A stretch of DNA of 9,829 nucleotides from Candidatus Zixiibacteriota bacterium (lineage in GTDB: Bacteria > Zixibacteria > MSB-5A5 > SM23-73-2): assembly GCA_030615745.1 (NCBI GenBank), contig JAUWYR010000059.1, positions 1-9,829 on the forward strand, in the 5' to 3' direction. Positions 3,043 to 7,868 of the stretch are shown piece by piece (position 1 is the first letter of the stretch; each line of letters starts with the position of its first letter). The notes beneath the pieces were generated by a model, which was not told the origin of the DNA, did not search any database, and worked only from the letters and a program-made list of their open reading frames with translations. Both the position numbers and the translations under genes were made by a program.

Positions 3043-3102
3043 GTAGGGGAGACCCTTGTGGTCTCCCACTGGTAGTTGGGAGGGGACAAGCCCCTCCCCT
3101 AC
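3043..3102. repeat. 60-bp double-hairpin palindromic element
   Basis: Outer arms GTAGGGG (3043-3049) and CCCCTAC (3096-3102) pair perfectly. Inside are two 8-bp hairpins: GGGAGACC/GGTCTCCC (3047-3054 with 3060-3067, loop CTTGT) and GGGAGGGG/CCCCTCCC (3078-3085 with 3091-3098, loop ACAAG). The right flank ACAAAAAAATC is found, in reverse complement, to the left of the hairpin at 3314-3339, so the two look like one family. No T-run follows on either strand, so it is not a standard terminator, though it could stabilise the 3' end of the upstream mRNA. The rest of 2944-3166 shows no gene. Confidence 0.8.
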
Positions 3103-3194: not shown

Positions 3195-3203
3195 AGAAAA
3201 GGT

Positions 3204-3301
3204 GGAAGCGGATAGGATCTGGTGGTCCTTGCGGACTTCAAATCCGTTATCCCGGCTCTTTTTGAGTCGGGAGGTGGGTTCGATTCCCACCCCTTCCGCC
3301 A
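3204..3301 (+). tRNA. selC: tRNA-Sec (anticodon UCA), encoded CCA
   Basis: The 98-nt gene reads UGA as selenocysteine. The acceptor 5' strand is GGAAGCGG (3204-3211). The D arm has the six base pairs and 4-nt loop typical of tRNA-Sec (AGGATC/GGTCCT around TGGT, 3214-3229). The anticodon arm is 3231-3247 with TCA at 3238-3240 in loop CTTCAAA. A long extra arm of eight pairs has a T5 loop (3251-3271). The T arm is GTGGG-TTCGATT-CCCAC (3274-3290). The discriminator is G3298 and CCA is encoded (3299-3301). Oddity: the 3' strand after the T loop is only 12 nt, so the branch pairs as 7+5 with C3209 bulged, or has a C-C mismatch, unlike the usual bacterial 8+5. It lies 271 bases upstream of selD, whose product acts in the same pathway. 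Confidence 0.93.
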
Positions 3302-3313
3302 AAAGTATTTTTT

Positions 3314-3339
3314 GTAGGGACAGGTCAAAAGACCTGTCC
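3314..3339. repeat. Hairpin repeat, half-element of the GTAGGG family
   Basis: GGACAGGTC (3318-3326) and GACCTGTCC (3331-3339) form a perfect 9-bp stem with an AAAA loop. The left flank ATTTTTTGTAGGG matches the reverse complement of the right end of the 3043-3102 element. The T-run precedes rather than follows the stem, so I do not call it a terminator for the tRNA gene. A possible promoter (TTGACT 3340-3345, GATTAT 3365-3370, 19-base spacer) lies just downstream and might serve selD, but it is weak. Confidence 0.65.
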
Positions 3340-3395
3340 TTGACTGATTTCATCTTTTTATATTGATTATGAGCCAAAAAGAAAAAAATCTGTGT

Positions 3396-3467
3396 CCGTC
3401 GGGTCCCCTGACCCGACGGGAACTCCCCTTTTGGGTCAGCCTGCCCGTCCAGGGGGGACCCAAAAGG
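3396..3467. repeat. Compound palindromic element upstream of selD
   Basis: The first stem is CCGTCGGGTC/GACCCGACGG (3396-3405 with 3410-3419, loop CCCT), ten perfect pairs. The second is CCTTTTGGGTC/GACCCAAAAGG (3427-3437 with 3457-3467), eleven perfect pairs around a 19-base loop. Both arms share GGGTC/GACCC. It is much more GC-rich than the surroundings and has no coding content. Confidence 0.75.
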
Positions 3468-3483
3468 CACTGGATTAAGATAA

Positions 3484-3561
3484 TGGTAGCCGTCCCGTTT
3501 CAGACGGGGCGAAAATCTAACATTTATTTTTAATAACTAACGCCCATATGGGCGGCTACCA
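3484..3561. repeat. 78-bp inverted-repeat element abutting the selD start
   Basis: Terminal arms TGGTAGCCG (3484-3492) and CGGCTACCA (3553-3561) pair over nine bases. A left inner hairpin pairs 3491-3498 with 3504-3511 (loop TTCAG, one G-T pair), and a right perfect palindrome is CGCCCATATGGGCG (3541-3554). The centre is AT-rich (TAACATTTATTTTTAATAAC). Its right end is 11 bases before the selD ATG, so the arm could fold into the selD leader and mask the poor ribosome-binding site. That regulatory role is inference. The CCATATGG core recurs in the 139-209 element. Confidence 0.7.
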
Positions 3562-3572
3562 GGTTTTAAATT

Positions 3573-4625
3573 ATGTCAGAAAAAGAAAAAATAAAACTCA
3601 CAGCTTATGCCTCGTCATTTGGGTGAGCTTCCAAATGTAGTCCGGAGGACACGATGCAGGTTCTGCATCATCTGAACAAAGTCGATGACCCCAATGTTTT
3701 GGTCGGCTTTAACGCAGTTGATGATTGCGGTGTATATAAACTTACAGATGATTTAGCTTTAGTTCAAACAGTTGATTATTTTCCTCCGGTTGTGGATGAC
3801 CCTTATGATTTCGGTGCCATCGCCTGTGCCAACTCTTTATCCGATATTTATGCTATGGGTGGAAAACCAATTTCTGCTTTAAATATTGTTGGATTTCCGT
3901 CTAATAAGCTTCCTTTAGAAGTCTTGGAGGAAATTTTAAAAGGTGGGTCTTTTAAGGCTAAAGAAGCAGAAGTTTCAATAATCGGAGGTCACACAATTAA
4001 GACAAAAGAGCCCCTTTATGGTATGTCGGTTACCGGAGTGATCCATCCGCAAAAAATCGTTAAAAATAGTGGAGCTGAAGTTGGGGATGCTTTGATTTTA
4101 ACCAAACCTCTTGGAATCGGGATAATAACCACCGCGCTCAAACAGGGAAAAATCTCTTCAGATGTTGAAAAAAATGTAACAGAGATAATGACTACTTTGA
4201 ATAAAAATGCTTCGGAGGCAATGGTAGAGGTTGGAATAAAAGCTTGCACAGATATTACCGGCTTTGGTCTTCTTGGTCATCTATGGGAGCTATGCTCCTC
4301 CTCTGGTGTAGGAGCGAAAATCTATCTTTCGAGGATTCCAACGATAAAAGAGGTCTGGGATTTTGCTTCGAAAAAAATTATTCCTGGAGGAACATTGGCA
4401 AATCTAAAATTCGTGGAGGATAAGGTGGTCTGGGAGGAAAGGATAAGCGAGGATGCAAAAATTGTCCTAACTGATGCTCAGACCTCAGGTGGACTCTTGA
4501 TATGTTGCCCTGAGGATAAAAAAGAAAGGCTTTTGGATCTTTTAAAAGAGAAAAATGTTTCAAATTATAATATAATAGGAAAGATTTTAGAGGATAAAAG
4601 ATGCAAGATAAAAGTGGAGATGTGA
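3573..4625 (+). CDS. selD: Selenide, water dikinase (selenophosphate synthetase), Sec-containing
   Basis: SelD makes selenophosphate from selenide and ATP, the selenium donor for SelA. Reading from ATG 3573, codon 18 is TGA (3624-3626) in the context LTAYASSFG-U-ASKCSPED. That is the place of the catalytic Cys17 of E. coli SelD, with the essential lysine at Lys21. The full product is 350 residues, like E. coli SelD (347). Downstream are the ATP-binding VDDCGVY (48-54), GGHTIKTKEP and TDITGFGLLGHL motifs. Beginning at ATG 3654 would remove the active site. ATG 3573 is the only upstream start, because an in-frame TAA lies at 3567-3569, but its ribosome-binding site is poor. A SECIS hairpin candidate is at 3653-3669. 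The gene overlaps selA by 25 bases. Confidence 0.93.
3653..3669 (+). promoter_or_regulatory. Candidate bacterial SECIS hairpin in selD
   Basis: GATGCAGGTTCTGCATC folds as a perfect stem (GATGCA/TGCATC, loop GGTTC; or seven pairs with loop GTT). From memory, the E. coli fdhF minimal SECIS is GGTTGCAGGTCTGCACC, also 17 nt, with the same GCA-GGU..C-UGC apex that binds SelB. The hairpin starts 26 nt after the UGA, longer than the 11 nt of fdhF, but the apical G lies about 33 nt away, within the range accepted for bacterial SECIS. A small GTCC-GGA-GGAC hairpin (3640-3650) in between could shorten the effective distance. The codons also encode MQVLH, so some of the pairing could be coincidental. 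Confidence 0.75.
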
Positions 4626-5995
4626 AATCTAAAAAGTTAAGAACTCTTCCTCAGATCGAGAAGATATTACAAACTCCTGCCTTAAAAAAATTTATTCAAA
4701 ATCACTCTCAAAAAGCAGTTGCAGATGTAGCCAGAGAGATTGTAAATTTATTCAGAAAAAATATCTTGAAGGGGAAAGAGAAAGTATCGGAAAAGAAAAT
4801 CCTTAAAGAAATTCAAAAAATTCTTTTGGAAAGACAAACCCTACCCTTAAAAGCGGTTATAAATGGAACCGGGGTTATCATTCACACAAATCTGGGCAGA
4901 GCACCTCTCTCAGAGGATACAATTAAACATATTTCAGATATTGGTAAAAATTATTCAAATCTCGAATTCGATTTACTCAAAGGTAGGAGGGGAGAAAGAA
5001 CATCCTTTCTGGAGAATCTAATCTGCGAGTTGACAAAAGCTGAAGGAGCATTGGTTGTCAACAACAACGCTTCTGCAGTTCTGTTGATTTTGGCTGGGTT
5101 AGCTAAGGGAAAAGAGGTTTTGGTCTCAAGAGGTGAGCTTGTTCAGATAGGAGGAGGCTTCAGAGTTCCTGAGGTGATGGAAGAGTCGGGTGCTTTTCTA
5201 AAAGAGGTTGGGACAACTAACCAGACCTCGGTTAAAAACTATGAAAATAACATAAATGAGAATACCTCTTTAATCTTAAAAGTTCACAAAAGCAACTTCA
5301 GGATGGAAGGATTTGTTGGTGAAGCAACGTTAAAAGAGTTGGTCAATTTAGGCAAAAAGTATAATATCCCTGTTGTCCAGGATTTAGGAAGTGGCTGTTT
5401 TTTGAACTCAGAGGATTTCGGATTAGCCCATGAGCCAACTCCATTTGATTCTATTAACTCAGGGGTTGATCTGATCTCATTCTCAGGGGATAAGCTCTTA
5501 GGAGGACCACAATCTGGAATAATTTTGGGGAAAAGGAAATACACAGATTTTTTAAGAAAAGATCCCCTTTATCGCGCCCTAAGAGTTGATAAACTGATAA
5601 TCTCAGGATTGGAAAATGTGATTTTGACCTATCTAAAAAAAGAAGCTACCAAAAAAATACCGGTGTGGCAGATGATAAGCATACCCTTAAAAGACTTGAG
5701 AAAGAGAGCTTTAGAAATACAAAAAGAGTTAAAAAAATCTAATATAAAACTCAATATTTTTGAATCCAAAAGCACAGTGGGTGGAGGTTCTCTGCCCGGC
5801 GAGACTCTGCCTACAATTGTTATTTCAGTGGACTCGAAAATATCACCCCACATTCAGGCACAGAATTTCCGAAATCAAAGTCCACCCATTATTGGAAGAG
5901 TCGAAAAGGATAAGTTCATTTTAGATTTGAGGACGATCTTCCCCCATCAGGATGAGGAAGTCTTGCAATCTGTCAAAAAAATTTTTTCAAAGTAA
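4601..5995 (+). CDS. selA: L-seryl-tRNA(Sec) selenium transferase (selenocysteine synthase)
   Basis: SelA is a pyridoxal-phosphate enzyme that converts Ser-tRNA(Sec) to Sec-tRNA(Sec) using selenophosphate from SelD; the E. coli enzyme is a large cytoplasmic homodecamer. The 464 residues match its usual length (463). Landmarks are the basic helical N-terminal region (about 10-80) that contacts tRNA-Sec, VINGTGVIIHTNLGRAPLS (86-104), NLEFDL..GRRGER (120-133), NNNASAVLL (154-162), VHKSNFRMEGF (228-238), and the PLP lysine Lys298 in SFSGDKLLGGPQSG. The start at 4601 lies inside the end of selD, with GAGG (4590-4593) seven bases upstream, so it is probably translated in coupling with selD. selB follows after seven bases. 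No key residue appears to be missing. Confidence 0.97.
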   Translation: MQDKSGDVKSKKLRTLPQIEKILQTPALKKFIQNHSQKAVADVAREIVNLFRKNILKGKEKVSEKKILKEIQKILLERQTLPLKAVINGTGVIIHTNLGRAPLSEDTIKHISDIGKNYSNLEFDLLKGRRGERTSFLENLICELTKAEGALVVNNNASAVLLILAGLAKGKEVLVSRGELVQIGGGFRVPEVMEESGAFLKEVGTTNQTSVKNYENNINENTSLILKVHKSNFRMEGFVGEATLKELVNLGKKYNIPVVQDLGSGCFLNSEDFGLAHEPTPFDSINSGVDLISFSGDKLLGGPQSGIILGKRKYTDFLRKDPLYRALRVDKLIISGLENVILTYLKKEATKKIPVWQMISIPLKDLRKRALEIQKELKKSNIKLNIFESKSTVGGGSLPGETLPTIVISVDSKISPHIQAQNFRNQSPPIIGRVEKDKFILDLRTIFPHQDEEVLQSVKKIFSK

Positions 5996-6002
5996 TTAAA
6001 GG

Positions 6003-7868
6003 ATGTTTGTTTTGGGAACAGCTGGTCATGTTGACCATGGGAAGTCAGCTTTGGTTAAGGCTCTAACAGGGATCGATCCCGACAGGCTTCCTGAGGAGAA
6101 AGAAAGGGAGATGACCATAGATTTAGGGTTTGCCTGGCTTTTTTTTCCAGATGGTAAAGAGGTGGGGATAGTCGATGTGCCAGGGCATGAGAGGTTTGTA
6201 AGAAATATGATCTCTGGTGTGGGAGGAATCGATGCGGTCTTGTTTGTCGTAGCAGTTGATGATGGCTGGATGCCCCAGTCAGAGGAGCATCTTCATATCA
6301 TAAGGCTTTTGGATATTAGATATGGGATTGTGGTTTTGACCAAGATAGATTTAGTAAAAAAAGATTGGCTTTCTCTGGTAGAAGAAGATATTAAGCAGAA
6401 GCTCAAAGGGACTTTCTTAGAGAATGCACCTCTGGTCAAAACCTCATTTGTTGAAGGTACTGGGATTGAAGAGTTGAGGTCTCAAATTATGGATTTGATA
6501 AAAAAGATTCAGCCGAAAAAAGACCTCGGAAAGCCGAGAGTTTTTGTGGATAGAGTATTCACTATGTCAGGAAGGGGAACAGTTGTAACAGGGACACTCA
6601 TAGATGGGTCTTTATCTTTAGATCAGGAGGTGAAGATTTTACCTCAGGGTCTTTTTTCGAGGGTCAGGGAGCTCCAAACTCATAAAAAGAAAAGGGAAAG
6701 AGTTGAACCTGGAACAAGGGTGGCAATGAATTTAGCTGGTCTGGAAAAATCTGAGATTAAAAGAGGGGATTTGGTGACAACTCCTGATTTTGAGAAAACT
6801 ACACTTCTGGTTGATACCAGGGTGCAGATGATCTCATCCTCCCCATATCCATTAAAACATAATCTTGAGATTTTATTCATTTTGGGAACAACTGAGCTTT
6901 TGGGAAAAGCAATCCTTTTAGAAAAGGATATACTCAAACCGGGCGAGGAGAGTCTGGTTCAGTTCAGGTTCAAAAAGCCTTTGGTCCCCAGAGTTGGAGA
7001 CCATTTCATCCTAAGGCTTCCCTCCCCTCCCACAACCATAGGTGGAGGTGTGGTTTTAGATATAGAGACAAAGAGACATAAAAGAAAAGACCCGAAATTT
7101 CTTGTTTATCTTGAAAGGAGAGCCTCTCTTAGACTCTCTGACCTTATATTATCGGAGTTGGAAAAGTCTGAGTTCGTCTTAACAAGAAATTTACTTAAGG
7201 AAAGTCTTTTCAGTCAAAAAGATGTCGAATCTGAGTTGAAAAACTTAGAAAAGCAAGAAAAAGTGATTTTAAAAGAGGAGATGGCAATCGATTCAAAAAG
7301 ATTCGAAAAGCTTTCTGAGATGATAGTTGAAAAAATTAGGGAAGAACACACAAAATATCCTTTTAAACCGGGATTGAAGCTATCAGATTTAGGCTCAACT
7401 GTCAAAGCAAATGGGAAATTTTTAGATTTTGTGATCAAAAGTTTGATAACTGAAAAAAAGATAGTTCAAAAAGAAGCCTACCTTTCTTTTTTAGACCACA
7501 AGCCCAAGCTGACACAGGAACAGGAGAGAATAGCTTCAGAGATTTTGAAAAAATTTGAGTCCAAACCAAAAGCACCTCCAATAAAAGATGAAATCATAAC
7601 TTGTGGTAAAGAGCACAAAGAGGTCTTTTCCTTTCTTATTCAACAGGAAATTATAGTCGAGCTTGGCTCAGGAATACTTTTTTTAAAAAAGGATTTTGAA
7701 AAAATTCAAAAGAAAGTCATAGATTTCATCAAAGAGAATGGTCCCTCCACTGTAAGCCAGATAAGAAAACATCTGGAAATAACCAGAAAATATGCAGTTC
7801 CCATCTTAGAGAAATTAGATCAATTGAAAATCACCAAAAGAGATAGGGACAAAAGAGTCTTAGCTTAA
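6003..7868 (+). CDS. selB: Selenocysteine-specific elongation factor SelB
   Basis: SelB is the GTPase that carries Sec-tRNA(Sec) to the ribosome and recognises the SECIS hairpin in mRNA. The 621 residues resemble E. coli SelB (614). The G domain has P-loop GHVDHGKS (8-15), switch I EREMTIDLGF with Thr38, DVPGH (58-62) and TKID (113-116). Domain II spans about 176-260 and includes SGRGTVVTGTL, and domain III spans about 265-360. The C-terminal winged-helix array occupies about 370-621 and ends in ENGPSTVSQIRKHLEITRKY and then AVPILEKLD, a typical SelB WH4 for SECIS binding. This intact array fits the SECIS-like hairpin in selD. The start follows selA by seven bases, with AAAGG (5998-6002) directly against the ATG, so coupling to selA is likely. 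Confidence 0.97.
   Translation: MFVLGTAGHVDHGKSALVKALTGIDPDRLPEEKEREMTIDLGFAWLFFPDGKEVGIVDVPGHERFVRNMISGVGGIDAVLFVVAVDDGWMPQSEEHLHIIRLLDIRYGIVVLTKIDLVKKDWLSLVEEDIKQKLKGTFLENAPLVKTSFVEGTGIEELRSQIMDLIKKIQPKKDLGKPRVFVDRVFTMSGRGTVVTGTLIDGSLSLDQEVKILPQGLFSRVRELQTHKKKRERVEPGTRVAMNLAGLEKSEIKRGDLVTTPDFEKTTLLVDTRVQMISSSPYPLKHNLEILFILGTTELLGKAILLEKDILKPGEESLVQFRFKKPLVPRVGDHFILRLPSPPTTIGGGVVLDIETKRHKRKDPKFLVYLERRASLRLSDLILSELEKSEFVLTRNLLKESLFSQKDVESELKNLEKQEKVILKEEMAIDSKRFEKLSEMIVEKIREEHTKYPFKPGLKLSDLGSTVKANGKFLDFVIKSLITEKKIVQKEAYLSFLDHKPKLTQEQERIASEILKKFESKPKAPPIKDEIITCGKEHKEVFSFLIQQEIIVELGSGILFLKKDFEKIQKKVIDFIKENGPSTVSQIRKHLEITRKYAVPILEKLDQLKITKRDRDKRVLA

Follow-up and report, generated by a model that had tools for sequence, protein, structure and literature searches.

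The window analysed here is a stretch of 9,829 nucleotides (nt), positions 1 to 9,829 of contig JAUWYR010000059.1, from a genome of the phylum Candidatus Zixiibacteriota (hereafter Zixibacteria), and it carries selC, the gene for the selenocysteine (Sec) tRNA, tRNA-Sec. The sequences of this gene and its relatives are best explained by a functional selC whose acceptor/T branch, 12 base pairs (bp) long with one bulged base at position 5a, is fixed in the phylum and would work with a matching subfamily of the Sec-specific elongation factor SelB, a reading that we consider very probable as a whole. The structural part of it, a tRNA-Sec with seven acceptor pairs, five T-stem pairs (7/5) and an extra base at 5a, is predicted with greater confidence still.

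Structure and conservation of the acceptor/T branch

The covariance-model scan proposed in the first-pass annotation matched the gene as tRNA-Sec, with the Rfam model RF01852 aligning to 3204-3297 at 66.9 bits against a gathering cut-off of 47 bits, and ARAGORN places tRNA-SeC(tca) at 3203-3300. The Rfam alignment leaves the 9-pair model stem without one base on each side and with three pairs broken. Features of the tRNA-Sec family are present, namely the UCA anticodon (read directly in the anticodon loop CTTCAAA), a 6-bp D stem with a 4-nt loop, a long variable arm and G73. The gene and its parts are as follows, with the bulged base in square brackets.

3204..3301, plus strand: selC, tRNA-Sec (UCA) with encoded CCA and a 12-bp 7/5 fold (ARAGORN, RF01852, direct reading)
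3204..3211, plus strand: acceptor 5' strand GGAAGCGG, read as GGAAG[C]GG with C3209 bulged (direct reading, relatives, energies)
Between the acceptor 5' strand and the D arm: 2-nt linker AT, AU in the RNA (direct reading)
3214..3229, plus strand: D arm, 6-bp stem AGGATC/GGTCCT with 4-nt loop TGGT, the SelA identity element (6 of 6 pairs in all 105 relatives)
3251..3271, plus strand: long variable arm, 8 bp CCCGGCTC/GAGTCGGG with loop TTTTT (direct reading, folding)
3274..3290, plus strand: T arm, 5-bp stem GTGGG/CCCAC with loop TTCGATT at 3279-3285 (pair covariation in relatives)
3291..3301, plus strand: acceptor 3' strand CCCTTCC (7 nt) at 3291-3297, G73 at 3298 and CCA at 3299-3301 (direct reading, relatives)

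Exactly 12 nt (CCCAC and CCCTTCC, 3286-3297) lie 3' of the T loop and face the 8-nt 5' strand plus the T stem. When the CCA end is kept single-stranded, the best pairing runs from G3204-C3297 to G3208-C3293, skips C3209 and resumes with G3210-C3292 and G3211-C3291. The T stem (3274-3278/3286-3290) contributes five further pairs, such that the branch totals 12 and C3209 is the extra base at position 5a. Structure prediction under the same constraint returns the cloverleaf with C3209 unpaired. The unconstrained minimum-energy register, at -47.3 kcal/mol, pairs up the CCA end and was set aside because this end must be single-stranded in a tRNA.

A search with RF01852 found tRNA-Sec in 106 of 132 Zixibacteria genomes, and 105 of the genes could be parsed. 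The arrangement of an 8-nt 5' strand facing a 7-nt 3' strand occurs in all 105, each with 12 nt after the T loop in place of the canonical 13-pair branch of an 8/5 tRNA-Sec, so that the comparison with relatives called for in the first-pass annotation yielded no 13-bp branch among the parsed genes of the phylum. All seven acceptor pairs form in 104 of 105 genes when 5' position 6 is treated as the extra base, and no other choice achieves this in any of them. The base at 5a is C in 50 genes, A in 44, U in 11 (one of these in the divergent G009 copy) and G in 0. G73 is invariant and the D stem is fully paired (6/6) in 105/105, and in the T stem the 50-64 pair covaries as UA, AU, GC or CG. The z-score of the tRNA-Sec fold is -4.6, which together with the identical architecture in 105/105 relatives argues that the fold is beyond chance. 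The 12-bp, 5a-bulged tRNA-Sec is thus the fixed form of Zixibacteria in all genes sampled, and direct reading, energies and relatives all bear out the earlier proposal of a 12-bp branch with C3209 bulged. The G009 gene (L057) starts with TGTAG, not GGAAG, and has lost acceptor pairs, by either assembly error or decay.

Two other registers of the branch have to be weighed, for which a tRNA-Sec from the Chloroflexota-phylum sample, G477 (L363), is informative. This tRNA has GGGAG[U]GC facing GCCUCCC and pairs fully only in the bulge register. The register that survives best beside 7/5 is a 6/6 branch, in which the 5a bulge is retained and C66 pairs with G48 (3273) instead of the last acceptor base. 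It weighs against a firm choice of 7/5 that, with the CCA end held single-stranded, the two bulged registers have the same computed energy for the window tRNA (-44.7 kcal/mol each) and that 6/6 is excluded only in G477; base 48 is moreover G in 105/105 genes. In G477, however, base 48 and base 66 are each G, which prevents that pair but allows C7-G66, and we regard the 6/6 branch as improbable. The first-pass annotation had also allowed a C-C mismatch in place of the bulge. Such an 8/4 branch would have no bulge: all eight acceptor positions would be retained, the sixth as an N.C mismatch, and the T stem would be 4 bp long. Its retention of all eight positions is offset by the loss of one pair and by an energy of -41.2 kcal/mol, 3.5 kcal/mol worse than the bulged fold. 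Moreover, a G at the site would perfect the pairing, yet none is seen among 105 Zixibacteria, 18 Atribacterota and 7 Chloroflexota genes, and the mismatch would become G.G in G477, where the 5a-bulge register pairs fully. Of the two options offered, the bulge has therefore stood and the mismatch has become very unlikely.

Distribution of branch forms outside the phylum

The comparison samples were partly selected by score, so the frequencies given here are approximate. The 5a form is found in 19 of 19 Atribacterota, with a different stem, GGGAG[C/U]GG facing CCCUCCC or CCCUCUC. Of 44 genes parsed from the Chloroflexota sample, 7 have a 7-nt 3' strand; six are GGAGG[C]GG/CCCCUCC and the seventh is G477, whose 5a bulge is an independent lineage. 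The GGAGG[C]GG/CCCCUCC form also occurs in a named Dehalococcoidia genome (L243). In Dehalococcoidia the extra base can instead lie in the linker, as in another such genome (L254), with seven contiguous acceptor pairs, and in G158, with a 7-bp acceptor. Gemmatimonadota have 13 bp in 48 of 48 parsed genes, as does the Clostridia sample (the phylum of G172; 48 of 48), where two more genes judged by eye agree.

Additional tRNA-Sec-shaped genes were observed in several genomes. Several tRNA-Sec matches fall in one Dehalococcoidia genome (L373; G135:C44), where a copy whose T arm pairs poorly accompanies an ordinary 13-bp copy. In the Zixibacteria genome G015, a second tRNA-Sec-like gene (L113; G015:C141:3320-3490, minus strand) has a GCA anticodon, a 6-bp D stem, a long variable arm and U73, and resembles a tRNA-Cys of the selC* type. 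Thermodesulfobacteriaceae genomes (L379, L384) also hold genes of tRNA-Sec shape whose anticodon is GCA.

Linkage to SelB and possible linkage to SelA

The first-pass annotation suggested that SelA and SelB may have co-adapted to the short branch. A SelB tree of 56 rows (14 from Zixibacteria, 9 from Atribacterota, 7 from Dehalococcoidia and 26 others, including the remaining Chloroflexota) places the 30 proteins of the three 5a groups together, split from the 26 others by a branch with support 100/100, and a constrained test rejects monophyly of Chloroflexota SelB (p about 1e-6). Within the DDGxMPQ motif of the SelB G domain, residue 89 is Trp in 30/30 members of the 5a clade and in 0/26 others, which have Val, Pro or Ile. 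SelA shows a comparable mark, residue 182 being Gln in 34/34 proteins of the 5a groups versus Glu in 29/29 others, and a SelA tree of 106 rows gathers the 5a groups on one side with support 98. A search for SelA in viral contigs found none.

These observations fit joint inheritance of tRNA shape and SelB across phyla, which in turn suggests that a selC-selB unit, perhaps with selA, was transferred between phyla. Several points weigh against going further. Constrained SelA tests do not separate a grouping that follows the SelB pattern from Chloroflexota monophyly. The 12-bp lineages G477 and G158 keep SelB Val and SelA Glu; because they lack the marker residues, the idea that every 12-bp tRNA-Sec requires these residues was rejected, and Trp89 and Gln182 may be markers of a single clade without selective value. 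The shared SelB clade, furthermore, represents one evolutionary event, and therefore adaptation cannot be demonstrated from the linkage alone. The earlier suggestion thus gains indirect support from the single SelB clade and the non-monophyly of Chloroflexota SelB, and is weakened by the single event and by the ordinary residues of G477 and G158. The 5a tRNA-Sec is possibly co-adapted with SelB. A stronger version is tentative, and we would sooner expect it to fail than to hold: a co-adapted Sec-insertion cassette, made up of the 12-bp 5a-bulged tRNA-Sec and dedicated forms of SelB (Trp89) and SelA (Gln182), would have had a single origin and spread among Zixibacteria, Atribacterota and Dehalococcoidia, and the bulge would take the place of the 13th pair as the signal by which SelB accepts the tRNA and EF-Tu rejects it.

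Genomic context and integrity of the gene

The selC gene is followed in one cluster by selD, selA and selB.

3573..4625, plus strand: selD, itself a selenoprotein gene with an in-frame UGA at codon 18 (FGUASK) (read-through translation; TIGR00476, E 1.6e-113; UGA kept in relatives)
4601..5995, plus strand: selA, with Gln182 (TIGR00474, E 1.8e-172)
6003..7868, plus strand: selB, Sec-specific elongation factor, with Trp89 in DDGWMPQ (TIGR00475, E 2.6e-110)

An ordinary listing of open reading frames (ORFs) puts the selD start downstream, at 3654. Codon 18, which we take to be the catalytic Sec/Cys site, remains UGA (Sec18) in distinct related Zixibacteria. The genome thus holds selA, selB, selD and a gene with a Sec UGA. 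Because selD, selA and selB adjoin, the selD UGA is conserved, and nothing disrupts the UCA anticodon, G73 or the D arm, selC is almost certainly the functional Sec tRNA of this organism, as judged from sequence. It is most implausible that selC has decayed or been repurposed, or that it encodes a selC*-like tRNA-Cys or an allo-tRNA: beyond the adjacent genes and the anticodon, the gene is the sole RF01852 match above cut-off in its own genome, and the U73, 8/4 fold and A51a T-stem bulge of selC* tRNA-Cys are replaced by G73 and a 5-bp, covarying, unbulged T stem. Least credible of all is that an indel from sequencing or assembly has altered an ordinary 13-bp tRNA-Sec, an error that the first-pass annotation had named as a possible refutation and that a first observation from a single genome, fragmented into 74 contigs, might have suggested, because one error cannot recur in 105 genomes of many families and independent assemblies with the same base count, nor is the arrangement confined to them, being shared by Atribacterota and some Dehalococcoidia.

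Other features of the window were noted in passing. An imperfect inverted repeat of 26 nt (GTAGGGGAGACCC...) lies at 3043-3102, between a peroxiredoxin-like gene and selC. GC-rich units resembling it, at 130-215, 3311-3345 and 3390-3560, have the appearance of intergenic repeats in dispersed copies. An AhpC/TSA-family ORF at 2473-2943 reads FFSSLKEN where the peroxidatic Cys motif is normally found and seems to be without that motif.

Proposed mechanism of recognition

SerRS recognises the variable arm together with G73 and favours a branch of 12 bp, the 6-bp D arm is the element read by SelA, and branch length is what SelB and EF-Tu sense (PMC7609411). For E. coli, acceptance by SelB and rejection by EF-Tu are attributed chiefly to the 8-bp acceptor stem, and in eukaryotes the elongation factor needs a non-Watson-Crick 5a:67b pair (PMC7609411). 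The elements that SerRS and SelA use, a 6-bp D arm with a 4-nt loop, the long variable arm and G73, are all preserved in the present tRNA. SerRS, favouring the 12-bp branch, would serylate it, SelA, reading the D arm and G73, would convert the Ser-tRNA, and SelB of the matching subfamily would bring the product to UGA. With the bulge, the 5' strand would stay 8 nt long, and the branch is probably deformed or extended between G5 and G6. The extruded 5a base might then substitute for the missing pair, such that SelB accepts the tRNA and EF-Tu refuses it, much as the eukaryotic 5a:67b pair is needed by its factor. This role of the bulge in discrimination, proposed by analogy, is speculative and somewhat doubtful. 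The 5a tRNA, SelB and probably SelA would have been inherited jointly and have crossed phyla as a unit.

The EF-Tu antideterminant of E. coli tRNA-Sec consists of C7-G66, G49-U65 and C50-G64, a set that is absent in Zixibacteria tRNA-Sec. The 49-65 pair is mostly G-C also in the 13-bp tRNAs of Gemmatimonadota and Clostridia, and for this reason the comparison is uninformative and loss of the antideterminant was dropped as an explanation.

Comparison with known systems

The present tRNA is of a published kind, the 7/5 tRNA-Sec of type 5a, and the first-pass annotation was correct in pointing to precedents for bacterial tRNAs with 12 pairs and a bulge (PMC5330540). Santesmasses et al. (2017) described 47 bacterial 7/5 tRNA-Sec, most with an acceptor bulge at 3a, 4a or 5a, from Gammaproteobacteria, Clostridiales, Spirochaetes, two Alphaproteobacteria, Rubrobacter and Dehalogenimonas (PMC5330540). 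A 43a bulge in the anticodon stem occurs in most of those cases and is common, not universal (PMC5330540). The tRNA described here shares with that set the 7-nt acceptor 3' strand, the 5-bp T stem, 12 bp, G73, a single acceptor bulge and the selABC neighbourhood, its bulge corresponding to their column C (5a); across Zixibacteria, seven residues separate the T stem from G73 in 105/105 genes and the bulge is at 5a in 104/105. The difference is one of lineage, since Zixibacteria and Atribacterota are unnamed there. The literature searched contained no mention of the 5a form in either phylum, nor of its universality in the sampled members of both, its presence in some Dehalococcoidia or its link to one SelB clade.

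Fixation in two phyla together with the link to one SelB clade makes the recognition question testable. Phyla with a shortened, bulged stem and a matching SelB clade are a natural experiment on what SelB reads, and the W89 and E/Q94 changes of the SelB G domain and Q182 of SelA are concrete residues to mutate. The same lineages supply tRNA/SelB pairs that are candidates for use in Sec incorporation, their branch being of the length that SerRS reportedly prefers.

Among other systems, the Epsilonproteobacteria have a 7/5 tRNA-Sec that was reported earlier as covariance-supported and lineage-wide (PMC4607533); it shares 7/5 in place of 8/5 with the present tRNA and belongs to a separate lineage, the likeness being one of description. 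The Cloacimonetes type, likewise reported earlier and cited in PMC5330540, also has 12 bp (7+5) and is one linker nucleotide short, whereas the tRNA described here has both linker nucleotides (AU) and a bulge as well. The tRNA-Sec-like tRNAs of other amino acids, such as selC*, share the shape and a branch that is not 13 bp, but mostly have other anticodons and 8/4 or 9/3 folds, with the A51a T-stem bulge in selC*. Finally, E. coli, Gemmatimonadota and most of the sampled Chloroflexota and Clostridia have the canonical 8/5 tRNA-Sec, which agrees with the Zixibacteria form in D arm, anticodon, long variable arm and G73 and differs in having 13 unbulged pairs in place of 12 and a bulge.
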